DNA of 64,000 nucleotides from a virus (IMGVR_UViG_3300023184_000026:233259-297258), one strand, 5' to 3'; positions 15,129-49,684 are shown, counted from the stretch's first letter. Notes: generated from the sequence alone by a model not told the origin. Numbers and translations are program-made.

Positions 15129-15695
15129 ATGAAAAGAAGCGAACTAAAACAATTGATCAGAGAAACGATTGAAGAGCAAATGATCCAAGAATCAGAAGCC
15201 GTTGACAACTTGATAAAACATATCCAAGCATTGTCAAAAGAAGAACAGGGAATTCTTCAAAATAAATTGACCAACTTGTTCAAAACATCAAAGTCTGGTT
15301 CCTTGCAGGACGCATATAATGAGCTTGCAAAAAATGGTAAGATAGTTATCATGCGCAGCGAAAAAAATAGAAATCAATTGATGGGATTTTTACAGTATAA
15401 AGATCAATTTTTGAACGACGAAAAATGCATAACCAGTAAAGAATACGTAAAATATAATGCAAACGCATTTGCAGAAGAATATCCAAACCTTGCGTTTGCG
15501 TTTAAAAATAATCCAGAATTGATGATTCCGTCGGTAGGTCTTGATGACGAAAGAGTTCCCAGCCCGCTCAGAGGACATGGCACTTCTATGAAAGACCAAA
15601 TAAGGGGTATCACGGGGTCTTGGAAAAAAAGACTTGGTGGGGCAGACATAAAAGTGGAACTTGATAAAAATCTTGAGCGCGACATGCCGAAGTAA
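15129..15695 (+). CDS. Hypothetical protein with N-terminal LKQLIRET tag, candidate packaged protein
   Basis: This 188-aa protein starts MKRSELKQLIRETIEEQM. Residues 6-13 (LKQLIRET) are identical, at the same position, to those of the small head-region protein at 41129, and resemble the predicted cleavage site of the major capsid protein (AKQLIDEA). In T4, N-terminal capsid-targeting peptides of internal proteins end in a gp21 cleavage site of the type I/L-x-E. By analogy this protein may be packaged and clipped after E12. The rest is polar: a helical part to about residue 60, then a mixed domain (NPELMIPSVGLDDERVPSPL). No catalytic motif is recognised. A strong terminator follows. Confidence 0.6.
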   Translation: MKRSELKQLIRETIEEQMIQESEAVDNLIKHIQALSKEEQGILQNKLTNLFKTSKSGSLQDAYNELAKNGKIVIMRSEKNRNQLMGFLQYKDQFLNDEKCITSKEYVKYNANAFAEEYPNLAFAFKNNPELMIPSVGLDDERVPSPLRGHGTSMKDQIRGITGSWKKRLGGADIKVELDKNLERDMPK

Positions 15696-16783: not shown

Positions 16784-19700
16784 ATGATAGATACATACGA
16801 AAAACTGAATACATCCCTTACTCGCGTAGATTATATTGTTCATGTATCCGACATTCATATTCGATTGACCAAACGGCATGTAGAATATAGAGAAGTGTTT
16901 GCCAAACTATATGAAGAAATCAAAAAGACACCAGCAAACACAATCATTATAAATACAGGAGATAGTTTTCATTCAAAATGTGACCTTTCACCCGAGGCTG
17001 TGCAGATTGCAAGTGAGTTCTTCAAGGGTTTGTCTGATTTGCGTCCTACGATTGTTATTGCTGGTAATCATGATTGTTTGCTCACAAACACAACGAGATT
17101 AGATAGTTTGACTCCTATTGTAGATAATCTGGCACATGACAATCTTTATTATCTAAAAGAAAGCAAGTTGTATTCATTTGCTAATATTCTTATAAATAAC
17201 ATGTCTATTTTCACTGACCATACTTCATTCATAAAAATGAAAGATGTGACCAAGAAAATCAAGACAGAGTTTGATACAAAGATTGCTTTATTTCATGGTG
17301 GTGTATTTGACGCCAAGACTGATGTAGGTTATACTGTGACCAACAAGAGTATCATGAATGATATGTTTGATGGTCATGACATGGCACTGCTTGGAGATAT
17401 ACACATGGCACAAAATCTGCAAATGTATGATCCGGCAGCAGAAAAGCCAATCATTCGTTATGCTGGTTCGTGCATACAACAAAATCACGGCGAAGCATTG
17501 CTTGGCCACGGTATTTGTTTGTGGGACGTAAAGAACAAAGCATACAAGCATGTAGAAATACCAAATGATTATGGTTATTTTACTATTGATATTGATGACG
17601 GCAAGTTGATGACTGATATAATCACAATGCCCAAGAAGCCAAAACTTCGTGTGCGTTGCAAAGAAACCATTGCTACTGAACTAAAAAAGGTAGTAAATGA
17701 AATCAAAAAGACGCATGAAATCAGCGATATTATTTATATGCGAGTTGATGGCGATGACGCTTCTAAAGTCGTAAGTGTTCAAGCTGCTGCCAACTTGAGT
17801 CAGATTGGCAATGTTGATTATCAAAATAAACTTATTAGTGAAGCACTCAAAGCTAAATATCCAGATATTATGGATGATGACACACTTGAGTCTGTTCATA
17901 AAATCAATAAAGAACTCAATGCGGATTTGAGCAAAGATGATGCTTCACGCAACATTCGTTGGAAGCCAATCAAGTTTGAGTTTAGCAATATGTTTAGTTA
18001 TGGTGAAAACAATGTTATTGACTTTACCAAACTAGAATCTGTGTATGGATTGTTCGCAAATAATGCGAGCGGAAAATCATCATTGATGGACGCATTATGC
18101 TTTACAGCATTTGATAAAAGTGCCAGAGCATTCAAAGCAACTCATGTGATGAACTCACAAAAAATGTCTTTTCATGGCAAGTTTACATTTGAGATAAATG
18201 ACATACAATATGTTATTGAGCGCAAAGGCATCAGAGATAAAAAGGGCAATGTCAAAGTTGATGTAAACTTCTATAAGATGGAGAAAGAAGAAAAGATTAG
18301 CCTCAATAGTGAAGCTCGCAGAAGCACAAACGAAATCATTCGTGATTATATCGGCGATTATGATGACTTTGTACTCACTTCTCTTGCATTACAAGGAAAT
18401 CAAGGGTCGTTTGTTGAAATGGGTCAAACTGAACGCAAGGATTTGTTGTGTCAGTTCATTGGTCTGAATGTGTTTGATAAACTTGTGGCCAAGGGCAATG
18501 ACAAACTAAAAGAACTAACAGGTGCTATCAAGTCATTCAACAAAGAAAACAATCAAGTCAAGATTGAGTCCAATAAAAATGATTTGGGATTGGCAGAGTC
18601 CAAACTTATTGATTTGACTGGTCAACGCGATCAATATTCATCAAAAAAGAATGAACTTGATAATAAAATCGTTGAACAACAAGCCAAGATTATAAAACTT
18701 GAAAATGTGCCAACAAATGTATTTGCTCTAAAAAAAGAGCGCGAAACTTTAGAAACAAAAAATAGTCAAGCTGTTGATGCCATTTCAGTTATTGACACAA
18801 ACACAGAGTCAAAGAAAAAAGAATATGTGGATGCGTCTAATAAACTATCTGCATTTCCAGATGATCTAAAAGAAAAATCAGACAAGCATGCAAGTTTTGT
18901 TCGTCAAAAAACTCGTCTTGAGCAAGAATTGGAAAAATTTAAGCTCGTGGTCAAAGAAAAACTCAAGAAGATAGAACATCTATCCAACCACAAATATGAT
19001 CCAAATTGTGAATATTGCTGTGATAATGCGTTTGTAAAAGATGCTATATCTGCAAAAAATAGTTTGGAATCCGACAAAACTGATGCAAGAGAATTGTTTG
19101 ACGCCATATCAACCATAAAAACACAGATTATAGAAGTTGAACCATTTGTAGCTCAATATGAACAAAGTGTGCTGCTCAAAGAAACTATCAATACACTCAC
19201 AGCATTCATTTCCAAGAAAGAATTGGAAAAGTCTAATCTCAATAATTTAATTTCTAAAAACTCTAATAGAATAGTTGATATTGACAATCTGGTTGAGTTG
19301 TATGAAAAATCCAAAGAAATTGTAGAAAGCAACAAGATTGTTGAGGTTGTTTTATCCAAACTAAAGGATGAAAATACTGTCATTGTGTCAAAGCTAAAGA
19401 ATATTGAGCGAGAATATGTGGATGCGTATAGCCGCAAAGTGTCATTGACAGACCAAATAAAAAACATCGAAGAACAAATCAAGAAAATAGAAGAGCATGA
19501 AAACGAACTTGCTGCTTATCAATATTATCTAACTTCTATTGGAAAAGACGGCGTGCCATATAAAATTATTTCGGACGCCATTCCAAGAATTGAGCAAGAA
19601 GTAAATAATATATTGTCTCAGATGGTTGAGTTTAGTATGGGTATTGAAACAGATGGTAAGAATGTCAATGTATATATCAAATATGATGACAAAAAATGGC

Positions 19701-19990
19701 CATTGGAACTATGTTCTGGTATGGAAAAGTTTGTTAGTGCTTTGGCTTTACGAGTATCTTTGATCAACATCAGCAATCTACCGCGTTCCAACTTTTTGGT
19801 AGTTGACGAAGGAATGTCGGCTTTGGATGCGTCAAATCTTCCTATGCTACATACATTGTTTGACTATCTAAAGAGCAGCTTCGATTTCATTATTATAATA
19901 AGTCATCTTGATGCCATGAGAGACATGGTAGACAAACAACTGGAAATCAAAAAAGAAAACGGTTTTAGCAAGATTGATAACAGCGTCTAA
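16784..19990 (+). CDS. Fused Mre11/SbcD-Rad50/SbcC recombination nuclease (gp47-gp46 fusion)
   Basis: This 1068-aa protein joins two normally separate subunits. Residues 1 to about 390 are a calcineurin-like nuclease: D23-I-H25, NTGDSFH near 65, AGNHDC near 105 and ALFHGGVFD further on, as in Mre11/SbcD/gp47. From about 400 the Rad50/SbcC/gp46 ATPase begins: FSNMFSYGENNVIDF, then Walker A NNASGKSS near 427. A long coiled coil carries the zinc-hook CEYC near 742. It returns to the signature LCSGMEKF, Walker B NFLVVDEGMSALD near 1003, and the H-loop IIISHLD. Such complexes resect DNA ends for recombination-dependent replication. T4 encodes gp47 and gp46 as adjacent genes in this order, so loss of the intervening stop explains the fusion. 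Confidence 0.9.
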   Translation: MIDTYEKLNTSLTRVDYIVHVSDIHIRLTKRHVEYREVFAKLYEEIKKTPANTIIINTGDSFHSKCDLSPEAVQIASEFFKGLSDLRPTIVIAGNHDCLLTNTTRLDSLTPIVDNLAHDNLYYLKESKLYSFANILINNMSIFTDHTSFIKMKDVTKKIKTEFDTKIALFHGGVFDAKTDVGYTVTNKSIMNDMFDGHDMALLGDIHMAQNLQMYDPAAEKPIIRYAGSCIQQNHGEALLGHGICLWDVKNKAYKHVEIPNDYGYFTIDIDDGKLMTDIITMPKKPKLRVRCKETIATELKKVVNEIKKTHEISDIIYMRVDGDDASKVVSVQAAANLSQIGNVDYQNKLISEALKAKYPDIMDDDTLESVHKINKELNADLSKDDASRNIRWKPIKFEFSNMFSYGENNVIDFTKLESVYGLFANNASGKSSLMDALCFTAFDKSARAFKATHVMNSQKMSFHGKFTFEINDIQYVIERKGIRDKKGNVKVDVNFYKMEKEEKISLNSEARRSTNEIIRDYIGDYDDFVLTSLALQGNQGSFVEMGQTERKDLLCQFIGLNVFDKLVAKGNDKLKELTGAIKSFNKENNQVKIESNKNDLGLAESKLIDLTGQRDQYSSKKNELDNKIVEQQAKIIKLENVPTNVFALKKERETLETKNSQAVDAISVIDTNTESKKKEYVDASNKLSAFPDDLKEKSDKHASFVRQKTRLEQELEKFKLVVKEKLKKIEHLSNHKYDPNCEYCCDNAFVKDAISAKNSLESDKTDARELFDAISTIKTQIIEVEPFVAQYEQSVLLKETINTLTAFISKKELEKSNLNNLISKNSNRIVDIDNLVELYEKSKEIVESNKIVEVVLSKLKDENTVIVSKLKNIEREYVDAYSRKVSLTDQIKNIEEQIKKIEEHENELAAYQYYLTSIGKDGVPYKIISDAIPRIEQEVNNILSQMVEFSMGIETDGKNVNVYIKYDDKKWPLELCSGMEKFVSALALRVSLINISNLPRSNFLVVDEGMSALDASNLPMLHTLFDYLKSSFDFIIIISHLDAMRDMVDKQLEIKKENGFSKIDNSV

Positions 19991-22254: not shown

Positions 22255-22264
22255 TGTATTTATA
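22255..22264 (+). promoter_or_regulatory. TGTATTTATA element, putative late promoter
   Basis: This one-mismatch copy lies 13 nt before ATG 22278. It overlaps the in-frame GTG at 22254, which is one reason to reject that earlier start. Confidence 0.45.
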
Positions 22265-22277
22265 TATACTTATAGGC

Positions 22278-25200
22278 ATGGACATTTCTATAAAAAACCT
22301 AAAAAAGTATATTTTTGAGCCAAAAACAGAGTCACTGCGTCTAAAAAGAGCCAATGAAATACTAAGTCAGAACATGGTCATCACCGAAAAGGTAGATGGA
22401 ACAAAACTAACATTGGTACGTACACAGCAAGTTGATAAAGCAGATTATACCAAGAATTGGGTTGTGGCATATAAAGGAACTGTATTGTATGCCAAAGAGT
22501 TTGCTCATTTAAATGATAAAGAAAAGGGTGATATATCTCAATCTTCTGTTGGCATTGGTCAATATTCCATGATATTTGATCATTTGTCCAAGATAAACAA
22601 TAAGATTAACAGTATTCCAAAGAGCACTGAGTTTAGCGTTGAGTTTGCTCAAAACAAAGACACATTAACTCGTACATATGTCAACAAGGGTGGCTTGTTC
22701 TTGAGAAGTTATGGTGAAGTGCAGTATCGTGTGGTTGGTGGAGATTTGCATACCATTCCGAAACAAGAAATAACAGACTACAAATCTGTGAAAAAGATGG
22801 CAGACTTGTTGGAAATATCATCATTTCCCATATTCTTTCAAGGAAAACTCAGCAAGGAAAATCTGCTGAAGAATCCTTTATTTGGATCAAAACTAACAAA
22901 TGTTGATTGGACCAATCCGACTGATGTTGTAACAAAATTTTCGGAGGCTATTCTGGCTGTTCCATCTACATTGGGTGGCACAACAGAAGGTGTGGTAATG
23001 AAGCTTGATAATGGAGAGTTCTTCAAGTTGGTGCAAGCCGATCAATATGATGCTGGAGTTCGTGGTGCAAAGAAGGACGCATATAAACTTGAACCAGAAG
23101 CCGCTTCAGCATACTTTCAACAAATCAGAGCATTGATACAAAATATTTTTGCTGCAATTGGTACTGAAGGAAAATCCGAAGAAGACGTTATTTCAGATTC
23201 AAATTTTTATGTTGCCAAGAATCAACCAAAGTTAAAAAAGTTCTTTGATGCTCTAAAACAGATTGCTGGTGACAAAAAGAATATTGTTCAAATCAAAGAT
23301 GATATTCATGATACAATTCGTTTGATGACATCCAAACAAGGTCTGTTGGGATCAACCAACAAAACGCTTGGTCTTATTCCAATTGCTGGCAAGCCATTGC
23401 ACATTGGTCATTGGAAGCTTATTGAAAAAGCAGCCAATGAAAATGATCGAGTCATTGTTTATACATCATCTTCCGACAGAATAAAGAAGGGTGAGTTTCC
23501 TATAAAGGGCGATGACTTTGTAAAACTATGGAGTGATGTGTTTATTCCATCTTTGCCAAAAAATGTAAAAGTAAAGTTTGTTGATTCTCCTGTTCGAGCT
23601 ATTATGCATGAACTTGGATGGTTGGAACAAAGATTGACTCAAGACGCCGCAGATATGCCAACCATAAATTTGTATTCTGACAAAGATGATGTTGAAATAA
23701 ACTTCAAAGACGAAGATTTAAAAAAGTATCCAGAGTTGTTGGCTGCTAATAAAATTAAAAAAATTGGTGTTGAAAGAACTACCACAGTGAATGTAAGTGG
23801 CACAAAAATGCGTGAATTTTTGATGAACAATGATAAAGAATTATTCTTGAAAAATCTTCCACCGGTCGGCAACAAAGACAAAGAAGAAATTTGGAATACT
23901 CTCATAGCAAACAAGCCAGAGCCGGTATCAGAAGTTAATCCATATATAAACTTTGCTGAGGAAGTTATAAATGAAATGGAAAAAGAAATGTTTAATGAAG
24001 GTGGTTGGAGATCTACTGCCACACAATCAACTATTATAACTCCAAAAAAAGTATCAAATATTTTGAGTGCAATGGATAAATTTGTATCAGAATTCAATTC
24101 ATATTCAAATCTTCCTCCAATAAAATCCAATGGACCGGTAGGTTCAGCAATGTATTATAAACAAGATTTGGAAAAAGATGATGTAGAATATGGTGATATA
24201 GATATTCAAATTATATTACCAGAAGAAACTAATGATAGAACATCACAACTAGCATCTAATAAAAAATATTCGGAAAAGATTATTCAATTTATTCAAGAAA
24301 AAAAACCAAGTTATATATATCCAAACTTTCAAGACGAAGACTTTGGTACGGGATATTTAATATTCAACGTTGGTGGTGAAAAAATTCAAGTTGATTTAGT
24401 TTTGTCATATAAAGTATCAGCAGAATGGACAAAAATTAGAACAACTCCGGAAAAAGGACTAAAAGGATTTGTTACTGGAAATCTATTGAGTGCATTATCC
24501 GATGCTCTTAATGTTGTGTTGGGATCAAACACCAATCCGTATGTAAATACGATAGATAATAAAGTTGCGTCATCTCTGATTAAAACAAACTCAAAGCATG
24601 TGTTCTTTAATCCAAATCAAGTATTTTTGGATATATTGAAGTTCTATGGCAATCTTGCTGGCGTTTCAAAAATAAATTCATCATTATTACAAGGTCATTA
24701 TGGATTGGATGCAAATGATCCATCATTAAAGAAAAAATGCGAAACCGTGGTTGCTTTGAGTAAAGCACTTGATAATAATAGAGCATTTGATAATGGAGTT
24801 GTTGTATCAAAAAATGGAACAACATTTAAATCCAGAGAAGAATTTGTAAAATATGTGCTGGATACATTCATAAAAAATATGAAATCGGCCAGCACTGCAA
24901 AAAAATTAGAAAAAGCAGAAACACCAGAAGCTATGAAAAATATTGAAAAGATAAAACGTGACGCAAATCTTGGTATAGAACTGGCCAAGCAACTTATTCG
25001 TGAAGAAATTGCATTATTGAATGAATCCGGTCAATCTGTTGCTGCTGTAGATGACAAAACGTCAAAGACCGTAAATGGTCAACCAGCCCAAGCCACCACC
25101 AAACTCAAGATTGTTGATCCACAAGGTAAAGACATTCGTTCTTCTGTATCTGCCGACATAAAAGAACTTATATATGCACTAAATAATAAGGTGGGTTTTT

Positions 25201-26198
25201 GGAAGAAAAATAATCCATATATTGAAAACGGATTTGTTTTCAATGGAAGTTCTCAATATCTAATGAGCGGCGATGAAAAATATAAAGATTTGTCCAAATA
25301 TAAATCTGGATTCGGTGATGTTGATGTGATTGTTCCAAAAGAAAAGTTGGACACAATGGAAGCATACCTAGATAGCATTGATGACAAGAAAGTTGAATGG
25401 AATGCAACATCAAAAAATAAAGTAAGCAAGAATTTTTATTATGTTGGTCGTACAAAAAATCAACGTGCCTTAGCCGGTCAAACAGTCACATTGTGGTATT
25501 ATGCTCCAGTAAAACAGGTTGTTCAAATTGACTTTGAAGGAGATGAAATGACATTGGACCCGCAAGGCTATGAAAAGCCATCTGAGTGGAACAAGTTTAT
25601 CAAAGATTCTCCATGGCAAGATTTGACAGCTGGCATCAAAGGATTGGCAGGAGCTATTTTATTACGCGGTTTGACACGAGCAGCAACCGCACTACCAAAT
25701 GCAGTGTATGTCACCAACTCAACTGCACTCAAGATACAATCTGGTCAGTTGAAGAGTTTGGTTGATGCCAAAGGCAAGAGTGTTGTATCAGTCAATGCTA
25801 CACATGCTCTACCAGCAGAATATACCCTCAATACAAGCGGTTCTGGTCATGCTGGTGTGCGCAAGGCATATCGTCTTGTAGCCAAGAATATGGACTATCA
25901 AGGTAAAAAAGTAGATGTTTATACCGACATTGCTGCCAGTGAAAGCAAACCAGAAGACCGTATCAACAGCGTAAATAAAGTATTTGAATTAATTTTTAAA
26001 CGCAAGCCAAGTGGTCAAGATATTGAAAATTTCAGAAGTTATGTTGGATTGCTAACACTCATGAAGACTCTACCAAAAGATGTTCAAGTAAAAGCACTGG
26101 AAAGAGCCAAAGAAGGTCTTGCTCAAGCGGGGTTGGAACCAGCAGAATATGCTCCAATTCAAAAAGCGGCTAAAACTATACTGGGAATATCCATATAA
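22278..26198 (+). CDS. Four-module nucleotidyltransferase fusion: ligase-like + HIGH-type + two Pol-beta-type domains
   Basis: ATG 22278 gives 1306 aa. Four modules can be read. (a) Residues 1 to about 300 look like a covalent nucleotidyltransferase/RNA ligase: TEKVDGTKL with candidate nucleophile K38, motif IV EGVVMKL at 237-243, motif V FFKLVQ at 248-253. (b) Residues about 360-560 look like a HIGH-type nucleotidyltransferase: GKPLHIGHWK (H375-H378) and VSGTKMREF at 506-514, the ISSTxxR-like block. (c) Near 619-645, GPVGSAMYY and YGDIDIQI (D640, D642) fit a Pol-beta-type nucleotidyltransferase. (d) Near 989-1016, NGSSQYL and FGDVDVIV (D1014, D1016) give a second Pol-beta-type domain. Between c and d, AKQLIREE (903-910) matches the predicted prohead-protease tag. 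Substrates are unknown; RNA repair, tRNA modification or a delivered effector are possible. Confidence 0.75.
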   Translation: MDISIKNLKKYIFEPKTESLRLKRANEILSQNMVITEKVDGTKLTLVRTQQVDKADYTKNWVVAYKGTVLYAKEFAHLNDKEKGDISQSSVGIGQYSMIFDHLSKINNKINSIPKSTEFSVEFAQNKDTLTRTYVNKGGLFLRSYGEVQYRVVGGDLHTIPKQEITDYKSVKKMADLLEISSFPIFFQGKLSKENLLKNPLFGSKLTNVDWTNPTDVVTKFSEAILAVPSTLGGTTEGVVMKLDNGEFFKLVQADQYDAGVRGAKKDAYKLEPEAASAYFQQIRALIQNIFAAIGTEGKSEEDVISDSNFYVAKNQPKLKKFFDALKQIAGDKKNIVQIKDDIHDTIRLMTSKQGLLGSTNKTLGLIPIAGKPLHIGHWKLIEKAANENDRVIVYTSSSDRIKKGEFPIKGDDFVKLWSDVFIPSLPKNVKVKFVDSPVRAIMHELGWLEQRLTQDAADMPTINLYSDKDDVEINFKDEDLKKYPELLAANKIKKIGVERTTTVNVSGTKMREFLMNNDKELFLKNLPPVGNKDKEEIWNTLIANKPEPVSEVNPYINFAEEVINEMEKEMFNEGGWRSTATQSTIITPKKVSNILSAMDKFVSEFNSYSNLPPIKSNGPVGSAMYYKQDLEKDDVEYGDIDIQIILPEETNDRTSQLASNKKYSEKIIQFIQEKKPSYIYPNFQDEDFGTGYLIFNVGGEKIQVDLVLSYKVSAEWTKIRTTPEKGLKGFVTGNLLSALSDALNVVLGSNTNPYVNTIDNKVASSLIKTNSKHVFFNPNQVFLDILKFYGNLAGVSKINSSLLQGHYGLDANDPSLKKKCETVVALSKALDNNRAFDNGVVVSKNGTTFKSREEFVKYVLDTFIKNMKSASTAKKLEKAETPEAMKNIEKIKRDANLGIELAKQLIREEIALLNESGQSVAAVDDKTSKTVNGQPAQATTKLKIVDPQGKDIRSSVSADIKELIYALNNKVGFWKKNNPYIENGFVFNGSSQYLMSGDEKYKDLSKYKSGFGDVDVIVPKEKLDTMEAYLDSIDDKKVEWNATSKNKVSKNFYYVGRTKNQRALAGQTVTLWYYAPVKQVVQIDFEGDEMTLDPQGYEKPSEWNKFIKDSPWQDLTAGIKGLAGAILLRGLTRAATALPNAVYVTNSTALKIQSGQLKSLVDAKGKSVVSVNATHALPAEYTLNTSGSGHAGVRKAYRLVAKNMDYQGKKVDVYTDIAASESKPEDRINSVNKVFELIFKRKPSGQDIENFRSYVGLLTLMKTLPKDVQVKALERAKEGLAQAGLEPAEYAPIQKAAKTILGISI

Positions 26199-26927: not shown

Positions 26928-28862
26928 ATGAAGATTCTTTATATAGCACCTCACCTTTCAACCGGTGGATGTCCCCAGTTCTTGCTCAAGAAAATACAAG
27001 TTTTACACAAAGATCATGAAATTTATTGTGTTGAATACTCAAATCATGGCGGCTTTACTGTTCAAAGAAACCAAATAAAGGAGATTCTTGGAAACAGATT
27101 CATAGAACTTGGTGAAGATAAAATGAATCTTCCGAATATCATAGACCGAATAAATCCGGAAATTGTTCATTTGGAAGAAATGCCAGAATATTTCATGGAT
27201 GGCAATTTGGCAGTAAAATTGTATGACAAAAACAGAAAATATAAAATAATTGAAACATCCCACGACAGCAGTTTCGACGCAAGAAATAAAACATTTTTCC
27301 CTGATAAGATACTGTTCGTAAGCAAGTATCAACTTGAATCTTTGAAATCATTGGATGTAGCAATGGATGTGTGTGAATATCCAATAGTAATTAAGCCAAG
27401 AAAGCCTCGGGCGGAAGCGTTGAAGGTACTTGGACTTGACCCAAATAAGAAACATATTATAAATGTTGGATTATTTACTCCAAGAAAAAATCAAGCTGAG
27501 ATAATTAGGTATGCTAAGATGTTGAAGGACTATCCAGTCCAGTTTCATTTCATCGGCAATCAGGCGGATAATTTTAAGTTTTATTGGGAACCATTGATGA
27601 AAGATTTTCCGAGCAATTGTGTGTGGTGGAACGAACGTAAAGACGTTGAAAATTTTTACCAAATTGCGGATCTTTTTCTATTCACTTCGCGAGGAACCAT
27701 ACATGATAAAGAAACAAGTCCTCTTGTGATTAGAGAAGCTATATCGTTCAATGTTACGTCGTTAATATATAATCTACCAGTGTATCTTGGAATGTATGAC
27801 AAATATGAAAATATAAACTATCTCAATTTTGAAAGTATGCAAGACAACTGCTCAAAAATACTAAACTCTCTGAAAATTAAACCAAACAATATTATGCCAG
27901 AATTTATAGAAAAACAAGAAGATATCAAGATAGGATACGACCGTTCAGAAAACAAGATTGAATATCTGTCCAAACACGATATTCCAAATGCAATCGTGTC
28001 GGTAAAGGACATAGACTCAAAAACGGTGTTGTATGCAGCACAACATGAAATTTTGAACGCCAATATAAATTATTGGATTATTCCCGTACACAAGAGTCAT
28101 AGAGATTTTGAAACAGATATCCTTTTTGGTGGAATGACTGTTGATGTATATAGTGGAGAAAATTTATTACACTCCAAAGATTTCAGAATACGGGTCGTCA
28201 ATGTAGAAAAGCCAGTACTGAAAACAAAGAATAATATCACTCCAACATATAATAACTATATGGAGTTTTTTGTTCACGGTGAATACAATGAATATTTGAA
28301 AGGAAAAGAGTTTAACACCGTTGTTGATGTTGGTGCCAACGCCGGTATCTGGGTTGAATATATCAAGTATGTAGCCAAATGCAAAAAGATATATGCAATA
28401 GAACCAAACACACAAGCATTAAAAACATTGAGAGATACATATACATCGGATGAATTGACCATAATAGACAAAGCATTGTGTGATAAAGATGGTGAATTGG
28501 AGTTTTTCATAGATCCCAGCAATTCTACCATAGGATCAATCAAGAAAAATCATCAAGACAGTTTGGTTGTTTCTCACAAAATACAAGGAATTTCATTTCG
28601 CACTTTTATCAAGGAAAATAATATTGATCATATAGATTTGATGAAAATGGACATAGAAGGTGGCGAATATCCATTTTTTGATAGCATGCAGAAAGAAGAT
28701 CTGGATAAAATTGGAACAATATTGGTTGAATATCACATGCAAGGTGGTCAAACCATAGACAAAGAAGTTGCAATATTATTGGCATTGTTGCGCGGGTCTG
28801 GATTCAAATACACCATAAAACATCAACACTCTGGCGGTGGGTTTATAGTTGCAACCAAATAA
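26928..28862 (+). CDS. Bifunctional GT4-type glycosyltransferase + FkbM-type methyltransferase
   Basis: This 644-aa protein has two parts. Residues 1 to about 310 resemble GT-B/GT4 enzymes: MKILYIAPHLSTGGCPQFLL at the N-terminal nucleotide fold, HIINVGLFTPRKNQAEII at the hinge, and FTSRGTIHDKETSPLVIREA as a version of the GT4 E-x7-E region. Residues about 430-640 are a class I SAM methyltransferase of the FkbM family: NTVVDVGANAGIWVEYI (SAM loop), YAIEPNTQALKTL and DLMKMDIEGGEYPFF. A small beta-rich linker domain joins them (GGMTVDVYSGENLL). Such fusions build and O-methylate surface or protein-linked glycans. It is the first gene of the glycan island; the next ATG is 6 nt after the stop. Confidence 0.8.
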   Translation: MKILYIAPHLSTGGCPQFLLKKIQVLHKDHEIYCVEYSNHGGFTVQRNQIKEILGNRFIELGEDKMNLPNIIDRINPEIVHLEEMPEYFMDGNLAVKLYDKNRKYKIIETSHDSSFDARNKTFFPDKILFVSKYQLESLKSLDVAMDVCEYPIVIKPRKPRAEALKVLGLDPNKKHIINVGLFTPRKNQAEIIRYAKMLKDYPVQFHFIGNQADNFKFYWEPLMKDFPSNCVWWNERKDVENFYQIADLFLFTSRGTIHDKETSPLVIREAISFNVTSLIYNLPVYLGMYDKYENINYLNFESMQDNCSKILNSLKIKPNNIMPEFIEKQEDIKIGYDRSENKIEYLSKHDIPNAIVSVKDIDSKTVLYAAQHEILNANINYWIIPVHKSHRDFETDILFGGMTVDVYSGENLLHSKDFRIRVVNVEKPVLKTKNNITPTYNNYMEFFVHGEYNEYLKGKEFNTVVDVGANAGIWVEYIKYVAKCKKIYAIEPNTQALKTLRDTYTSDELTIIDKALCDKDGELEFFIDPSNSTIGSIKKNHQDSLVVSHKIQGISFRTFIKENNIDHIDLMKMDIEGGEYPFFDSMQKEDLDKIGTILVEYHMQGGQTIDKEVAILLALLRGSGFKYTIKHQHSGGGFIVATK

Positions 28863-28868
28863 AATATT

Positions 28869-29498
28869 ATGGCAAACGGAGTATACAGAATAACAGAAGA
28901 GTTTGAGGAAAAATTGGCAAAATATACTGGTGCTCCATATGTAGTCACCGTGGATAATCAAAGCAATGCTTTGTTTTTATCATTATATTATCAAAATATA
29001 AAAGGACAGTCTATTAGCATTCCTTCCCGCACGTACCCGAGTGTACCATGTGAGATCATACATGCTGGCGGAAAGGTAAACTTTGAACCGGTTGAAGGCA
29101 AGACCATCAAGGGTGCATATCAGCTCAAGCCCACGCGCACGTGGGACAGCGCATTGCGCTTTACTGCCAACATGTATATTCCAAATTCGTTCATGTGCAT
29201 ATCTTTTACCGGTCCATATAAGCACTTCAAATTAAGCAAGGGTGGTGCTATTCTTACAGACGATCTTCATGCATATCATTGGTTTAAGCGTGCCAGATAC
29301 AGCGGCAGAAGAGAATGTTCATATCATGATGACAATCTGGATATGCTAGGTTGGAATTTTTACATGATGCCGGAACTTGCTGCCAGAGGATTGTTGCTTA
29401 TGGGTCAGTTTTATAACATGGACGGCACACCAAAACATAATGAAGATTTGGAGCTACCATATCCAGACTTATCCAAATTTGATGTGTATAAGCAATGA
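28869..29498 (+). CDS. Short DegT/DnrJ/EryC1-type sugar aminotransferase
   Basis: The sequence follows the DegT/DnrJ/EryC1/StrS PLP fold: VTVDNQSNALFLSLYY (cofactor phosphate region), ISIPSRTYPSVPCEIIHAGG, a WDSA around D93 in place of the usual EDAAQ, and SFTGPYKHFKLSKGGAILTD, where K118 aligns best with the PLP-linking lysine. At 209 aa it is far shorter than the usual 360-400 aa. The C-terminal small domain is missing, and the connection between the sugar-binding loops is shortened. The gene is intact and overlaps the next start by 4 nt, so I read it as a compact or specialised form rather than a broken gene. It probably pairs with the following acyltransferase to make an acylated amino sugar. 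Confidence 0.7.
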   Translation: MANGVYRITEEFEEKLAKYTGAPYVVTVDNQSNALFLSLYYQNIKGQSISIPSRTYPSVPCEIIHAGGKVNFEPVEGKTIKGAYQLKPTRTWDSALRFTANMYIPNSFMCISFTGPYKHFKLSKGGAILTDDLHAYHWFKRARYSGRRECSYHDDNLDMLGWNFYMMPELAARGLLLMGQFYNMDGTPKHNEDLELPYPDLSKFDVYKQ

Positions 29499-30052
29499 TT
29501 AGAAAATTCCAAAACTATACAGAGGATGAAATGAATGAGTCTGGTATGACTTTTGGTAAAAATGTATATATTGCCAATGATGTTATCATTCATAATGCCC
29601 AGAATATAATCATAGGAGACAATGTTCGCATAGATACTCAATGTGTATTGATTGCTGGAAAAAATCACAAAATAAAAATTGGAAATAGCGTACATATTTC
29701 GGCAGGATGCTATTTTTATGGCAATTCCGGAAATATAACTCTGGGAGATTGTTGTTGCACTTCCGGTCGCTGCATTCTTTATACCGCAAATGATGATTAT
29801 ACAGACGGCTATATGGCCAATTCTGTGATAGATGATAAGTACAAAAAGGTGGTTGCTGGAAACATAGAGTTAAAAAAACATGCGTTGGTTGGATGTTATA
29901 CAGTAATACTTCCAAATGTTGTTTTGGAGCATGCCACGTCTGTAGGCGCACACTCGCTGATTACAAAATCTACTTCTCATTTTGATGTTGTGGCGGGTTG
30001 CCCAGCTAAATTTATAAAGAAAAGAAAAAATGTTTATTTGACAGATGTATAA
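29495..30052 (+). CDS. Left-handed beta-helix (hexapeptide) acyltransferase
   Basis: This 185-aa protein shows hexapeptide turns throughout: NVYIANDVIIHNAQNIIIGD, NVRIDTQCVLIAG, KIKIGNSVHISAGCYF. After an insert loop (TANDDYTDGYM) come the typical C-terminal HALVGCYTVILPNVVLEHAT and DVVAGCPAKFIKK, the CoA-binding end of WbbJ/maa-type O- or N-acetyltransferases. It overlaps the aminotransferase by 4 nt and the next gene by 8 nt. The pairing suggests N-acetylation of an amino sugar, or O-acetylation of a glycan; the substrate cannot be told. Confidence 0.85.
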   Translation: MIRKFQNYTEDEMNESGMTFGKNVYIANDVIIHNAQNIIIGDNVRIDTQCVLIAGKNHKIKIGNSVHISAGCYFYGNSGNITLGDCCCTSGRCILYTANDDYTDGYMANSVIDDKYKKVVAGNIELKKHALVGCYTVILPNVVLEHATSVGAHSLITKSTSHFDVVAGCPAKFIKKRKNVYLTDV

Positions 30053-30845
30053 AGGAAAAAAAGTCATACTTACTACGACAGCGTGCAAAAGAATAAATCT
30101 TCTTAAAGCCGCAATACAAAGTTTTAGTATATTCTGCCAAGATAAGAATATAATAGATGAAATACACTATTATGACGACTCTTCGCAGCCACACGAAAGA
30201 TCAACGGCGATTGAGTATTATCATAAGCATATACCAAGTGCCAATTTGATATTCAGATTTTTTGAGAAGGAGACATTTCCAGACAACTATAGACATGCGA
30301 GAGTATTGAACTTCTGGAGAAATGGTATAGAAAGTTCAAATGCCGATTATGTATTTCATCTGGAAGATGATCATCAGTTTTATAATATGTTTAATATAGG
30401 TGAAGCTATAGATATTATGGAACAATATCCAGAGTATGCTTATATGGGCTATTGTCAAAGTTGGAAAAATTTTCCAGTTGATATGATGCCAAAGAAAATA
30501 ATAGGGAACTTTTGGGAGACGATTTATCTTGACAACAGGCCAATGAATGATTTATTATTCTTGGATGATGTTATGGCTATGCATACTGGACTAGATTGGT
30601 GGATGTATTATATTAATTGGCCGTATTTTTCTTTGCGGCCTGGAGTACATCATGTCAAGAAGCTGCTTTCCGTGGGAGATTTTTCCACAACATATGATCG
30701 TGAAAAAACAAGCGTTGAGTTGGAGTTTGCCATACGATGGAAAAATATGGGGTACAAAAGCATGATGTGCAAGTATTTTACTTCTCTACACACTGGTCAA
30801 GATCCAGAACTTAGCGCATACAAAATCAACAACTCAGCAAGATGA
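30045..30845 (+). CDS. GT-A-type glycosyltransferase (266 aa)
   Basis: The start KKVILTTTACKRINLLKAAI and the later IDEIHYYDDSSQP look like the first strands of a GT-A fold. The DxD-type metal/nucleotide motif is in YVFHLEDDHQF near residue 105. The central AYMGYCQSWKNFPVD and the final part DREKTSVELEFAIRWKNMGY suit a small single-domain glycosyltransferase. It overlaps the acyltransferase by 8 nt and the next gene by 4 nt, showing compact organisation of the island. The family number is uncertain. Confidence 0.65.
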   Translation: MYKGKKVILTTTACKRINLLKAAIQSFSIFCQDKNIIDEIHYYDDSSQPHERSTAIEYYHKHIPSANLIFRFFEKETFPDNYRHARVLNFWRNGIESSNADYVFHLEDDHQFYNMFNIGEAIDIMEQYPEYAYMGYCQSWKNFPVDMMPKKIIGNFWETIYLDNRPMNDLLFLDDVMAMHTGLDWWMYYINWPYFSLRPGVHHVKKLLSVGDFSTTYDREKTSVELEFAIRWKNMGYKSMMCKYFTSLHTGQDPELSAYKINNSAR

Positions 30846-32149
30846 ACGAACAAACATTTCAAAATATATGGACAGAATGCCTTGGGTTCAATATTGAACA
30901 AAAGCCAGAAGAATATAAACAGCTGCTTTCACTGCTTGATGATAGAAAGAACAAGCGTTATGCTCTTGAAATAGGCTCAAATTATGGCGGAACCACTGCT
31001 GGATTTTGTCAGTTATTTGATACGGTAATAACAATAGACATCAAACACCATATCAATTTTGATAGACTTAAACGGAAGCATCCCACATACCAATATATTA
31101 TTTCGGATTCCAAGAGCAATGATACATTGGAATATATCAAAAGTCTTGGAATTAAATTTGATTTCATCTTTATTGATGGCGACCATTCATACAATGGGGC
31201 AAAAAATGATTATGACAAATATAAGCAATTTTTGGCATATGATGGGCATATAGGATTTCATGACATCATCTCAAGCGACCTTAATCGCCAATACGACATA
31301 AATGTGGACATTCTTTGGAAAGAAATAAAAGACACATATAACGATGTTCACGAATTTGTGGCTACATCAAAACACTCTGATTATAGCAGGCAGAATGAAT
31401 TTCATGAAATAGTTGGAAAAAACGATTATTCACAATGGGGAGGTATTGGAGTATTAAAAAATACACCAATTGGAGTTTTTTCTCATAACTATCTTACCAA
31501 TCATTGGTATGACATTGTTAATAGCCAGCTTTTAAAACTGAGCAATTCTGGTCTATACAAGCGAGCGGACAAAATTGTTTATGGAGTCAATGTTGATAAG
31601 GATGACGTATATCATAGTTTTATTGGGCTGTTGGACAAATATGATATAGACAGAAAGATAGAAGTATATCGTTATACAAAAAACATGTATGAGTTTCCCA
31701 CACTTATTCATCTACAGAATTATTGTGCCAACAATCCAAATGCATCCGTAGTGTATTATCACGCAAAAGGAACATCTCGCTCGTATGATCGCAACATAGA
31801 GTCTTGGAGAGAATGTCTTGAATATTTTAACATAGAACAATGGAAAAAATGTCACACTGAAATTATTACAGGAAAACACGATGTGTGTGGAGCATTGCAT
31901 GTTGATAAATTTGAGTTTTTGGATAAAGTACTTACAAACTATTATTCTGGCAATTTCTGGTGGGCAAGTGCAAAGTATATAAATACACTTGACAATATAA
32001 CCGCAAAAATGATAGAAGTAAATATGGAAAGAGCCGAAGCTGAAAGATGGATAGGTAGAAAACCACATCGCTGGGCCAGCCTATATAATGAAAATATATC
32101 GGATTGGTATATGCATTACTTTGATCCAAAATTATATAAACGACCATGA
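30842..32149 (+). CDS. Methyltransferase_24-like domain fused to an unknown HAKG-type domain
   Basis: Residues about 35-145 form a SAM-dependent methyltransferase: YALEIGSNYGGTTAGFCQLF (SAM loop), VITIDIKHH, and FDFIFIDGDHSYNGAKNDYD followed by DGHIGFHDI, as in cephalosporin-hydroxylase/Methyltransferase_24 proteins. Residues about 235-435 carry a second domain with VVYYHAKGTS, DVCGALHVD and YYSGNFWWASAKYI. I have the impression of this pattern in glycosyltransferase-like proteins, but I cannot name the family. It overlaps both neighbours by 4 nt. The methyl acceptor is presumably a sugar of the same glycan. Confidence 0.7.
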   Translation: MNEQTFQNIWTECLGFNIEQKPEEYKQLLSLLDDRKNKRYALEIGSNYGGTTAGFCQLFDTVITIDIKHHINFDRLKRKHPTYQYIISDSKSNDTLEYIKSLGIKFDFIFIDGDHSYNGAKNDYDKYKQFLAYDGHIGFHDIISSDLNRQYDINVDILWKEIKDTYNDVHEFVATSKHSDYSRQNEFHEIVGKNDYSQWGGIGVLKNTPIGVFSHNYLTNHWYDIVNSQLLKLSNSGLYKRADKIVYGVNVDKDDVYHSFIGLLDKYDIDRKIEVYRYTKNMYEFPTLIHLQNYCANNPNASVVYYHAKGTSRSYDRNIESWRECLEYFNIEQWKKCHTEIITGKHDVCGALHVDKFEFLDKVLTNYYSGNFWWASAKYINTLDNITAKMIEVNMERAEAERWIGRKPHRWASLYNENISDWYMHYFDPKLYKRP

Positions 32150-33909: not shown

Positions 33910-34003
33910 TAAGTTTTTGATTGAAATTGGGTCAAATAAGTTTCATCATGATAAATTAGAAATATTTGCAGATTCAAATAAAAGTTTTATAAAATTAAAA
34001 TAA
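33902..34003 (+). pseudogene. Possible frameshifted C-terminal remnant in the gap after the GT2 gene
   Basis: The 95-bp gap contains a start-less open stretch from 33902 to TAA at 34001, in a different frame from the upstream gene. It reads in part NDKFLIEIGSNKFHHDKL and EIFADSNKSFIKLK. Composition and strand pattern look protein-like, and NDKFL echoes DDKFL near the end of the upstream protein. It could be the lost tail of that protein after a frameshift, or chance. Confidence 0.25.
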
Positions 34004-34004
34004 T

Positions 34005-38205: not shown

Positions 38206-38215
38206 TATATTTATA
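38206..38215 (+). promoter_or_regulatory. TATATTTATA element, putative late promoter
   Basis: A perfect copy lies in the gap between terminase and portal genes, 25 nt before the portal ATG at 38241. Confidence 0.55.
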
Positions 38216-40227: not shown

Positions 40228-40237
40228 CATATTTATA
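40228..40237 (+). promoter_or_regulatory. CATATTTATA element, putative late promoter
   Basis: A one-mismatch copy lies 14 nt upstream of the ATG at 40252, in the 49-bp gap after the portal gene. Confidence 0.5.
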
Positions 40238-41128: not shown

Positions 41129-41440
41129 ATGACAAAATCACAACTAAAACAACTAATCAGAGAAACAATAAATGATTATGAATCCACACAGCCACAAAAG
41201 GTTGTTGGAAAATACATCTATTTTGTTGATTCTAAAGAGTTGTATAGTTTAAAGCCGTATAAACTTGTCAAAGATGGTGGATGCGATATATCTCTGTCAA
41301 ATAATTGGACAAAAGCAACAGTGATGCAAGGACAAGATGTTAGAGATATGGGAATCGACAGCGTTACAGACATATCGGCTTGGTATATTGTAAACAATGC
41401 TCCATCAGATCATGCATATACTGCATATATTGGAAAATAA
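41129..41440 (+). CDS. Small LKQLIRET-tagged head-region protein, candidate internal protein
   Basis: This 103-aa protein starts MTKSQLKQLIRETINDY. Residues 6-13 are identical to the start of the protein at 15129, and resemble the predicted capsid cleavage site AKQLIDEA. I read it as a capsid-targeting/protease-cleaved tag with cutting after E12, by analogy with T4 internal proteins. The remainder is a small mixed domain (VVGKYIYFVDSKELYSLKPY; DISLSNNWTKATVMQGQDV). Neighbours are portal and prohead protease genes. No catalytic motif is seen. Confidence 0.6.
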   Translation: MTKSQLKQLIRETINDYESTQPQKVVGKYIYFVDSKELYSLKPYKLVKDGGCDISLSNNWTKATVMQGQDVRDMGIDSVTDISAWYIVNNAPSDHAYTAYIGK

Positions 41441-41443
41441 AAA

Positions 41444-41935
41444 ATGAACGACACCAAGCAAATCATCCGTGAATTAGTTGAAGAAGTCATTGAAGAAATG
41501 ACATCAACGGGTGCTGTTGCTGGTTATCAAACACCAGCAGCATTTCGTGGTCATAAAAGCAAAAAGAAATCAGCAGAACGTAGTATGCCAGGTGGCAAAG
41601 TTGTAGGCAAAGAAGACACAGATAATACAACAGTTGGCGAAGGTGAAACACTAACATTGCGTCGTGATATTGGTATTATGGAAGGTCGCAGCCGCTATCG
41701 TAATTTTAAAGATAGTGACATGATGAAAAATCATGCTAAAATTTCGTATGGTATCAATCAAGCAAAAAAAATGCTTGGTGAAGTTGAATATCTATTAAAC
41801 ATCTGTGAACGTCTCAAGACCGAAGCAGATGTTCCAGCCACAAGTTTGTGGGCACGTACTCAACCAGACATGAAAGAAATTCATGGTCGATTGAAAGAAA
41901 TTGCCAAAAGAATCAACAGAATGGGAAAAAAATAA
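41444..41935 (+). CDS. Small basic head-region protein with KQIIRE tag (163 aa)
   Basis: It begins MNDTKQIIRELVEEVIEEMT, a variant of the KQLIRE tag with E10 as possible cut site. A basic, flexible segment follows (TPAAFRGHKSKKKSAERSMP), then a helical half (MKNHAKISYGINQAKKMLGE; DMKEIHGRLKEIAKRINRMG). The lysine-rich middle suits a DNA-associated internal head protein. It lies 3 nt after the preceding gene and 5 nt before the next. Function is inferred from context only. Confidence 0.6.
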   Translation: MNDTKQIIRELVEEVIEEMTSTGAVAGYQTPAAFRGHKSKKKSAERSMPGGKVVGKEDTDNTTVGEGETLTLRRDIGIMEGRSRYRNFKDSDMMKNHAKISYGINQAKKMLGEVEYLLNICERLKTEADVPATSLWARTQPDMKEIHGRLKEIAKRINRMGKK

Positions 41936-42494: not shown

Positions 42495-43121
42495 ATGAGC
42501 AAACAACTATTAGTAGATTTTATTCCATTTGACATCACTCCGCAGATGCTTACAGAAGCAAAAGCAAATACTGGTGGTCCATTGGTTCTCAAAGGTCCAT
42601 TACAAAAAGCCGGTGAAAAGAATCACAATGGTCGTGTATATCCACGCGAAGTATTGGAGCGTGAAGTTGAAAAATATCAACAAATCATCAAAGAACGTCG
42701 TGCTTTGGGTGAACTTGATCATCCAGAATCCAGTATCATCAATCTAAAGAATGTATGTCACAATGTTACAGAATGTCACTGGGAAGGTGATACTGTGGTT
42801 GGTACTATTGAAATTCTAACCACACCAAGTGGTAATATTGCAAGAGATTTGATTAAAAACAATATTCGCATTGGTATTAGCAGTCGCGGTTTGGGAAGTG
42901 TTCGCAATGTGAATGAAAATACTGTTGAAGTACAAGATGACTTTGAACTATTGTGTTTTGACCTTGTATCTTCACCAAGCACACGTGGTGCTTATATGAA
43001 TCTTGCCGAAGGCATAAATCGTGAAAAACAATTGATTGGTGGCAATCAAGATCGCAAAGACATCAACAAATATTTAAAAATTGAAAATATCATTCGTGAT
43101 ATATTATCAGAAACCCGTTAA
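42495..43121 (+). CDS. 21: Prohead maturation protease, gp21-like (family S77)
   Basis: This 208-aa protein matches the length of T4 gp21 (212 aa). It has the family's motifs: NHNGRVYPREVLEREV near residue 43, LGELDHPESS with the likely catalytic H76, IRIGISSRGLGSVR with S129 or S130 as nucleophile, and FELLCFDLVSSPSTRGAYM with acidic D156. The enzyme cleaves scaffold, capsid and internal proteins after I/L-x-E before DNA packaging. Its C-terminal RKDINKYLKIENIIRDILSE could be self-processed. It lies in the usual portal-protease-scaffold-capsid order. Confidence 0.92.
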   Translation: MSKQLLVDFIPFDITPQMLTEAKANTGGPLVLKGPLQKAGEKNHNGRVYPREVLEREVEKYQQIIKERRALGELDHPESSIINLKNVCHNVTECHWEGDTVVGTIEILTTPSGNIARDLIKNNIRIGISSRGLGSVRNVNENTVEVQDDFELLCFDLVSSPSTRGAYMNLAEGINREKQLIGGNQDRKDINKYLKIENIIRDILSETR

Positions 43122-47179: not shown

Positions 47180-48793
47180 ATGTCAATTAAATCATTACTA
47201 ACTGAGACAACCAATCCAATGGTTAAGCTCATGACCGAAACTCGCGGTCTTGTCTCCAAGTGGGAAAAGACCGGACTTCTAGAAGGCATCAAGAGCGACA
47301 TGGAAAAGTCACACATGTCCATCCTTCTGGAAAATCAAGCAAAACAACTGATCGACGAAGCAACCCGCACGGGTACTTCATCGAACTCCGAACAATGGGC
47401 TGGCGTTGCTCTCCCACTAGTTCGCCGTGTTTTCGCAGAAATCGCCGCGAAGGAATTCGTGTCGGTTCAACCAATGAATCTTCCTTCTGGTCTGGTGTTC
47501 TATCTGGACTTCAAGTATGGTTCTGGCCAATCTGGCAAGCCAAGTTTCAAGGACAATTCTTTGTTCGGTGGAACAGGTACTAAATTGGGTTCTACCGACA
47601 GCGCAACCAACGGTCTATATGGCCAAGGTCGTTTCGGTTACACCATCAATGATGTTCTCGCAACACCAGCTATGGTCACAGGTTCTCTTAGCACAGCAAA
47701 TGCTCCAACTTGGGAAAACATCAACTTCACTGAAGAACTGAGTGCTTCATTGTCAAACGGCGGAATCCAATCCGTTACTGTATCGTTGAGTGGAACAAAC
47801 TTCGACGCCAATGGCGCTCGTGCGTTTACCGTTTCTGGTTCGGGCATCGTCGATTTCTATCCTGCGTTTACACGAGTTTCTGGTACAAGCGTAATCTTTT
47901 ACGTTTCTGGATCAGCCATCAGTGGAAACTCTCTGGTTGGATATCACAAACAACCGGGCGACGCAAGTCGTGGCGACTTCGAAGATAAAGGTGACGGATT
48001 GCCAAACACCACGGGTGTTGCGGACGACATCGGAATTCCAGAAGTTAACTTGGAACTGAAGAGCGAAGCTATTGTAGCTAAGACCCGCAAGCTGAAAGCC
48101 GTCTGGACACCAGAATTGGCCCAAGACTTGAATGCATACCACAGCATCGATGCTGAAGCCGAATTGACGGCTCTTCTATCGGAATACGTTTCAATGGAAA
48201 TCGACCTAGAAATCCTTGACATGTTGATCACCAATGCTCCGGCGACCACAACCGACTTCTGGTCTGCACGCATTGGATCTGAATATGACGTGACAACCCG
48301 TCTGTTCAAGGACACAGCTGCTAACCGCACTGCATATGTCAAGAGCACATGGTTCCAAACCTTGGGCAACAAGATCCAAAAGGTCTCGAACAAGATTCAC
48401 CAATTGACACTGCGCGGTGGTGCAAACTTCCTAGTTTGCTCCCCAGACGTTGCTACAATCATTGAATCCATTCCAGGCTTCAGCACCAACACGGACGGCG
48501 ACCAAGCCAAGTTCGCAATGGGTGTGGCCAAAGTTGGCGCTCTGAGCAACCGTTGGACAGTATACAAGAACCCATACATGACAGACAATGTTATGTTGGT
48601 AGGTTTCCGTGGAACAAACTTCCTAGAAACCGGCGCTGTGTACGCTCCATACATCCCACTGATTCAAACACCGTTGGTGTATGACCCAGTGAACTTTACA
48701 CCACGTCGTGGCGTAATGACACGTTATGCCAAGAAGATGATAAGACCTGAGTTCTACGGCAAGATCATCATTGGCAACTTAAACGAAGTCTAA
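47180..48793 (+). CDS. 23: Major capsid protein, gp23-like
   Basis: This 537-aa protein is close in length to T4 gp23 (521 aa). The N-terminal propeptide (SIKSLLTETTNPMVKLMTE) ends in ENQAKQLIDE60/A61TRTG, a good I-x-E/A gp21 cleavage site at nearly the same place as in T4 (after E65). The shell part follows: QWAGVALPLVRRVFAEIAAK, FVSVQPMNLPSGLVFYLDFK, AKTRKLKAVWTPELAQDLNA, and near the end TRYAKKMIRPEFYGKIII. A Ser/Gly/Val-rich insert at about residues 160-260 (TVSLSGTNFDANGARAFTVS) may be the gp23/gp24-type insertion domain. Codon choice is C- and G-enriched, as expected for the most abundant protein. A strong terminator follows. Confidence 0.95.
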   Translation: MSIKSLLTETTNPMVKLMTETRGLVSKWEKTGLLEGIKSDMEKSHMSILLENQAKQLIDEATRTGTSSNSEQWAGVALPLVRRVFAEIAAKEFVSVQPMNLPSGLVFYLDFKYGSGQSGKPSFKDNSLFGGTGTKLGSTDSATNGLYGQGRFGYTINDVLATPAMVTGSLSTANAPTWENINFTEELSASLSNGGIQSVTVSLSGTNFDANGARAFTVSGSGIVDFYPAFTRVSGTSVIFYVSGSAISGNSLVGYHKQPGDASRGDFEDKGDGLPNTTGVADDIGIPEVNLELKSEAIVAKTRKLKAVWTPELAQDLNAYHSIDAEAELTALLSEYVSMEIDLEILDMLITNAPATTTDFWSARIGSEYDVTTRLFKDTAANRTAYVKSTWFQTLGNKIQKVSNKIHQLTLRGGANFLVCSPDVATIIESIPGFSTNTDGDQAKFAMGVAKVGALSNRWTVYKNPYMTDNVMLVGFRGTNFLETGAVYAPYIPLIQTPLVYDPVNFTPRRGVMTRYAKKMIRPEFYGKIIIGNLNEV

Positions 48794-48852: not shown

Positions 48853-48906
48853 GTCAAAATATTTTGATGTTTGAGATTTATGATTGATATATATAGATAT
48901 AATTCT

Positions 48907-49659: not shown

Positions 49660-49684
49660 CCGTATATATAATATATATTGTACC

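Follow-up and report, generated by a model that had tools for sequence, protein, structure and literature searches.

The viral genome segment IMGVR_UViG_3300023184_000026:233259–297258 (64,000 nt of a giant phage; hereafter the window, meaning the whole stretch of DNA that was analysed) contains an open reading frame (ORF), P0001, that joins four nucleotidyltransferase modules in one chain. These comprise a ligase-type domain, a domain of the HIGH superfamily and two DNA polymerase beta (Pol-beta)-type domains, the latter referred to below as PolB3 and PolB4 after modules 3 and 4; this architecture is well supported. The three enzyme kinds recur as a linked set in diverse phages, the borders of module 3 carry a conserved junction motif, and the window encodes a homologue of the T4 prohead protease gp21. 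With middling confidence, we propose that P0001 is the fused form of an enzyme set that is cleaved by the prohead protease, packaged into the head and injected, and that acts on RNA ends, chiefly in tRNA repair.

Domain architecture of P0001

All motifs that a sequence-only reading of the window had placed in P0001 were found at their positions, namely the ligase-type K38-V-D-G and E237-G-V-V, the HIGH-type H375-x-G-H378 and S507-G-T-K-M-R512, and two Pol-beta-type sets (G622-S623...D640-x-D642 and S991/S992...D1014-x-D1016). Beyond these, we identified E122 (ligase motif III), K250 (motif V), and the third carboxylates D706 and D1085. The motif residues are all kept in full-length P0001 relatives from IMG/VR (59–97% identical), and catalytic residues are likewise retained across 33 ligase-HIGH and 42 PolB4 sequences; conservation in the relatives argues that the motif set is not a product of chance. 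Structure prediction yielded ligase and HIGH folds where the motifs had suggested them, and a PDB search returned Pol-beta-family matches for the C-terminal half. The sequence-only reading had assigned the four modules to four superfamilies; the modules stand, but there are only three superfamilies, because Pol-beta occurs twice. While full-length relatives keep all four modules, module 3 is missing from others (loci L023, L029/L063, L059, L061 and L062).

In the ligase-HIGH half, K38, D40, G41, K43, E122, E237, G238, K250, H378 and S507 were invariant across the 33 diverse sequences. An AlphaFold2 (AF2) model of residues 1–572, with 33 sequences in the alignment, reached a mean pLDDT of 90.5 and a pTM of 0.86, and its closest solved structure was T4 RNA ligase 2 (Rnl2; E 1.4e-7), followed for module 1 by fungal tRNA ligases. 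The modelled ligase domain continues into a helical C-terminal part, not an OB-fold, which is what DNA ligases have at the corresponding place. By motifs I, III, IV and V together with its predicted fold, module 1 belongs to the covalent nucleotidyltransferase (ligase/capping) superfamily and appears Rnl2-like; it missed the curated cut-off of Pfam RNA_ligase PF09414 (27 bits), scoring 21.2 bits in one scan and 25 in another. Module 2 is placed in the HIGH nucleotidyltransferase superfamily by its (H/T)xGH and S(G/A)TxxR motifs and its predicted fold. PDB matches of the latter included ATP sulfurylase, NMN adenylyltransferase (NMNAT) and phosphopantetheine adenylyltransferase (PPAT), and a sequence-profile comparison with NMNAT gave 2e-8. 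As the substrate is not readable from similarity, we rejected the label of plain NMNAT as unproven. Vibrio and Campylobacter relatives show changed forms of the HIGH motif (TKDGH, TKAH).

Modules 3 and 4 both contain the GS, DxD and third carboxylate by which the Pol-beta superfamily is recognised, and the GS, both Asp of DxD and the third Asp were invariant across the 42 PolB4 sequences. In a model of residues 573–1306 (pLDDT 85.5, pTM 0.56), the relative placement of the two halves was poor; with both halves as one query, the top 50 PDB matches were all Pol beta, mu or lambda, at E-values of 1.6e-3 to 1e-2. Module 3 alone retrieved no phage record by tblastn, no Pfam or PDB profile match and no useful PHROGs match, and its profile comparison with module 4 was negative. 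Since sequence and profile searches with module 3 gave nothing, its assignment rests on motif and topology: the order of strands and helices around GS, DxD and the third Asp is as expected for Pol-beta. An identity as RlaP was ruled out for the Pol-beta modules, neither P0001 nor PolB4 matching PF10127. No bacterial PolB4 relative was confirmed in a single genome scan, and Pfam and PHROGs scans of P0001 detected no MuF, portal, peptidase, helicase or other signature domain of polyvalent proteins.

A recurring three-enzyme cassette

Running the module profiles over fetched phage loci revealed ligase-type, HIGH and Pol-beta types linked in four layouts across diverse phages. At ~20 distinct loci, a PolB4 gene shares a contig with a ligase-HIGH gene, in most cases adjacent to it and often overlapping by 3–18 nt. 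The P0001 lineage has ligase, HIGH and PolB4 as one chain, with or without PolB3 ahead of PolB4, and another lineage has the opposite order, PolB4-ligase-HIGH, in single chains of 990–1442 aa whose ligase part is recognised by its motifs and, weakly (E about 1e-4), by profile. Separate genes are found in Xanthomonas phage X1 and Stenotrophomonas phage Moby, in the row PolB4, unknown protein, ligase-motif protein and HIGH protein; the protein between PolB4 and the ligase-like gene (L035:5954–6955 and L171:4722–5663) has no Pfam match.

Among annotated phage records, the ligase-HIGH gene occurs in 21 and PolB4 in 22. All 21 belong to the Vibrio and Campylobacter lineages, which have PolB4 as well, and the PolB4 set additionally includes X1, whose partners are split; because the phages are closely related within each genus, these records amount to few independent lineages. 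In Campylobacter phages the PolB4 and ligase-HIGH genes lie ~65 kb apart, both retained. Some relatives have further partners: one (L131) carries a fused N-terminal P-loop kinase, another (L103) an HD domain, and Vibrio relatives have genes for Rnl1 and a tRNA nucleotidyltransferase nearby. The sequence-only reading knew of no protein with such a combination. Nor was the three-enzyme link found in the published work searched, but the cassette itself turns up in many phages, its genes unannotated or labelled 'cytidyltransferase'. It is open to experiment, since isolated phages carry it (Xanthomonas X1, Stenotrophomonas Moby, Vibrio Va1 and Campylobacter CP220).

Candidate cleavage sites, tags and virion relatives

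The junction between modules 2 and 3 reads (F/L)-x-E574↓GGWR (arrow, candidate cleavage point), with Phe or Leu at P3, and that between modules 3 and 4 reads L-x-E916↓SG(Q/K)S, with L914xE916 in every aligned row. E574 and E916 are invariant in the rows having the junctions, while linker 2/3 diverges. Stand-alone PolB4 proteins, after removal of near-identical sequences, fall into 21 that begin with MGGN and 19 with real leaders (up to ~22 aa) ending in E↓GGN; one further leader-like case was left out as a C-terminal fragment. All 19 leaders end in Glu and 17 of them in [LI]xE, compared with a background of 1.2% per position, a pattern that stands even though its formal probability is too small owing to the relatedness of the sequences. 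T4 gp21 cleaves after L/I-x-E (PMC9026906), and the P0001 junctions and PolB4 leaders fit this consensus as candidate sites. The in-frame absence of module 3 from L023 and L029 suggests that the unit between the junctions behaves as a cassette. The window's gp21 homologue gene lies close to that for the major head protein (Table 1).

The KQLIREE tag that the sequence-only reading had noticed between modules 3 and 4 is real (residues 904–910) and recurrent: among the 340 ORFs of the genome, nine carry KQLIRE at their N-terminus, small proteins of the head cluster among them, as against 0.44 expected. Elsewhere in the genome, a 196-aa ORF (L156:19047–19637) has a KNILKEAVAKE tag at its start and a DMDGV motif after that, and is perhaps a tagged HAD phosphatase.

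HIGH proteins published as 'cytidylyltransferase' or 'NMNAT' have been detected by mass spectrometry in virions of the cyanophages S-CREM2, S-SCSM1, S-SZBM1 and S-CBWM1 (PMC10665884, PMC9602691). The three readable ones start MKNFSSFLTE↓AD, MKSFLQFLKE↓AA and MRFRQFIIE↓A, the leader type seen in PolB4. Two genes downstream of the HIGH gene of S-CREM2 lies gp156 (L175:5513–6226), published as a virion 'hypothetical protein' and classed here by Pfam PF01909, just above cut-off, as a Pol-beta nucleotidyltransferase. By analogy with these relatives, P0001 is likely to be packaged into the head.

The cyanophage family DUF6267 (PF19782), matched by 372 phage records, adjoined the HIGH gene in all five phages inspected (for instance L172:2272–3501, L177:4478–5671(-) and A7). 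Its KWDG, EGxV and KxV motifs are invariant, and it may be a divergent enzyme of the ligase superfamily; because its profile comparison with module 1 was negative, we did not count it as the cassette ligase.

Table 1. P0001, its modules and linkers, and related features of the window
Feature	Coordinates	Strand	Basis
P0001, polyprotein ORF, 1306 aa	22278..26198	+	ATG 22278, stop 26196-26198
Module 1, aa 1-345, Rnl2/tRNA-ligase-type adenylyltransferase domain with helical C-terminal part (predicted)	22278..23312	+	AF2 model, PDB search, conservation
Module 2, aa 346-543, HIGH-superfamily nucleotidyltransferase (HIGH, SGTKMR)	23313..23906	+	Pfam scan, AF2 model, PDB and profile matches
Linker 2/3, with (F/L)-x-E574↓GGWR as candidate cleavage site at its end	23907..23999	+	Alignment of relatives
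Module 3, aa 575-860, Pol-beta-type nucleotidyltransferase (G622S623, D640, D642, D706)	24000..24857	+	Motif conservation, secondary-structure order
Linker 3/4, KQLIREE tag (24987-25007) and candidate cleavage site L914-x-E916↓SGQS	24858..25025	+	Tag search, alignment
Module 4, aa 917-1306, Pol-beta-type nucleotidyltransferase, phrog_19290 relative (D1014, D1016, D1085)	25026..26195	+	PHROGs, conservation, model
T4 gp21-type head maturation protease, candidate processing enzyme	42495..43121	+	phrog_207, E 9.1e-53
Major head protein, KQLIDE↓A in N-terminal region	47180..48793	+	phrog_138, E 7e-74; sequence
Small protein, N-terminal tag MKRSELKQLIRETIEEQMIQE	15129..15695	+	Sequence, tag search
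Small protein in head cluster, N-terminal tag MTKSQLKQLIRET	41129..41440	+	Sequence, tag search
Small protein in head cluster, N-terminal tag MNDTKQIIRELVEEVIEE	41444..41935	+	Sequence, tag search

Upstream of P0001, positions 16784–19990 encode an SbcD-like phosphoesterase and an SbcC-like ATPase fused in a single 1068-aa ORF, and a block of glycosyltransferase, FkbM methyltransferase, aminotransferase and related genes (26928–36125) separates P0001 from the terminase gene. The major head gene is followed (48871–50479) by a GIY-YIG homing endonuclease-like ORF and an ORF that combines a signal-like N-terminus with a DRGHLVPA nuclease motif, both as judged from their sequence. The sequence TATAAATA is enriched in the window (22 occurrences vs. 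7.7 expected), with its reverse complement just upstream of P0001 and several structural genes; as translation starts in the window are AT-rich, we did not take this enrichment as evidence of late expression. TATTTATA stands within ~35 nt upstream of eight gene starts, including those of P0001 and the portal gene (e.g. 22257–22264, 38208–38215 and 40230–40237). PADLOC returned no usable defence-system match.

Possible roles and relation to known systems

According to the proposed mechanism, P0001 would be expressed late, and internal targeting helices such as KQLIREE would take it into the prohead, where a gp21-like protease would cut after E574 and E916 to release ligase-HIGH, PolB3 and PolB4. 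The products would enter the host together with the DNA and, being injected with it, could act ahead of phage gene expression. Their job might be the repair or protection of RNA ends, chiefly of tRNAs cut by host anticodon nucleases: the Pol-beta enzyme would restore or add 3′ nucleotides, the ligase would then seal, and the HIGH domain may move a nucleotide onto an end or a cofactor. Among the roles put forward in the sequence-only reading, an injected RNA-repair effector is the one that fared best; repair is predicted from the folds and the cassette context, and packaging is backed by the (L/I)xE junctions, the gp21 homologue and the virion proteomics of cyanophage relatives.

We prefer RNA-end repair for several reasons: the nearest matches of the ligase are RNA and tRNA ligases, and a helical part follows it instead of an OB-fold; one relative has a fused P-loop kinase; genes for Rnl1 and a tRNA nucleotidyltransferase are close by in the Vibrio relatives; and this phage invests heavily in translation, with 36 tRNAs (some in L160, L161 and L165) and a tmRNA (L161:7795–8185, i.e. 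G000:C1:107795–108185). The pairing of a ligase with a Pol-beta enzyme is, moreover, known from RNA repair, as described for RlaP (PMC7824862). More tentatively, three kinds of nucleotidyltransferase might act in sequence on one substrate; the capsid would be loaded with them as a polyprotein resembling a zymogen, to be activated once the prohead protease exposes a GGN/SGQ N-terminus. The cassette would then represent a widespread unnamed phage pathway, maybe a new RNA-end or cofactor modification rather than plain ligation.

Several observations weigh against an injected RNA-repair set. The same genome has an ordinary Rnl2-type PF09414 ligase (G000:C1:77497) and, elsewhere, RlaP; with a conventional RNA ligase and RlaP already present, the cassette may do something else, or the fused set may be an extra copy of the RNA-repair idea, plausibly the one delivered at time zero. 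We know of no established role for HIGH domains in RNA repair, and the Pol-beta half found its best fold matches among family X DNA polymerases, at modest E-values (about 2e-3). The virion detections concern cyanophage relatives of the HIGH and Pol-beta proteins, not this phage, and the S-CREM2 authors themselves warn of possible carry-over. The available part of the legend to the CP220 virion bands does not list the ligase-HIGH protein, and we found these bands to be of no help as support for packaging. Finally, MGGN-type, Vibrio and X1 relatives are without leader, so packaging is not universal.

The cassette might instead serve host takeover, its modules attaching nucleotides to host RNA, proteins or cofactors (e.g. 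NAD-related, through the NMNAT-like domain). The HIGH domain is nearest to NMN adenylyltransferases and PPAT, the authors of the cyanophage studies suggest NAD-related functions for the HIGH proteins that they found in virions (PMC10665884, PMC9602691), and T4 Alt sets a precedent for a packaged modifying enzyme. We nevertheless regard this as unlikely, given how stably an RNA-ligase-type domain and a Pol-beta enzyme accompany the HIGH domain, and given the Rnl1, tRNA nucleotidyltransferase and kinase contexts, and the altered HIGH motif of the Vibrio and Campylobacter relatives. Rather improbable, too, is that the packaged cassette repairs incoming phage DNA by Pol X-like gap filling and ligase sealing, as in base-excision or end-joining repair. 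Such chemistry is established, the DNA polymerases among the PDB matches of modules 3 and 4 would suit it, and far down the list of viral matches comes African swine fever virus Pol X (E 0.32); yet the ligase domain resembles T4 Rnl2 and tRNA ligases and lacks an OB-fold, the HIGH domain is left without a role, and the chain has no nuclease or glycosylase domain. Least probable, in our estimate, is an ordinary cytoplasmic RNA-repair set with linkers as plain flexible joints and leaders due to chance or structure: in its favour, about half of the PolB4 relatives start at MGGN with no leader, but it fits poorly with the leader endings, the invariant junction Glu, the tag enriched at N-termini and the relatives detected in virions.

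Should RNA-end repair by an injected set prove right, phages would have enzymes for repairing or modifying RNA ends in the cell from time zero, before tRNA-cutting defences, and a head protease would split a polyprotein into active enzymes. The cassette unites, as one functional unit, genes that many T4-like phages have under separate annotations ('hypothetical protein', 'cytidyltransferase'), and it offers a testable account of why cyanophage virions contain HIGH proteins, which had been unexplained.

Compared with known systems, module 1 shares with Rnl2-type RNA ligases (PF09414) and T4 gp24.1 the Lys-adenylylation motifs I, III, IV and V, the predicted fold and the helical C-terminal part, but scores below the Pfam cut-off and shares its chain with HIGH and Pol-beta domains. 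An RNA ligase combined with a Pol-beta nucleotidyltransferase, which may put back nucleotides that were lost, is likewise a feature of RlaP and the modular RNA-repair systems of Burroughs and Aravind; PolB3 and PolB4, however, do not match PF10127, and the accessible part of that work describes neither a HIGH domain nor head processing (PMC7824862). With T4 Alt and internal proteins that bear capsid-targeting sequences, P0001 has in common a short putative targeting peptide and, as predicted here, gp21 cleavage at (L/I)xE and injection; whereas Alt is cut at both ends (ITE-6 and LTE-619; PMC5694885), the P0001 sites separate several enzymes within one chain. The virion HIGH proteins of S-CREM2, S-SCSM1, S-SZBM1 and S-CBWM1 share the HIGH domain and, in the three read, the (L/I)xE leader, but stand alone, were published as NAD-related and were not linked to a ligase and Pol-beta. 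Phage polyvalent proteins also unite many enzyme domains in one probably injected polypeptide; P0001 differs in having probable processing sites and no MuF, portal or peptidase signature, and an RNA ligase with HIGH is not reported in the available part of that study (PMC5512222). The component superfamilies, packaged T4 proteins and ligase-nucleotidyltransferase repair sets were thus already known, while the recurring combination of ligase, HIGH and Pol-beta with apparent head-protease junctions was not found in the published work searched and probably constitutes an unnamed, pre-loaded kit for repairing or modifying RNA ends in the host.

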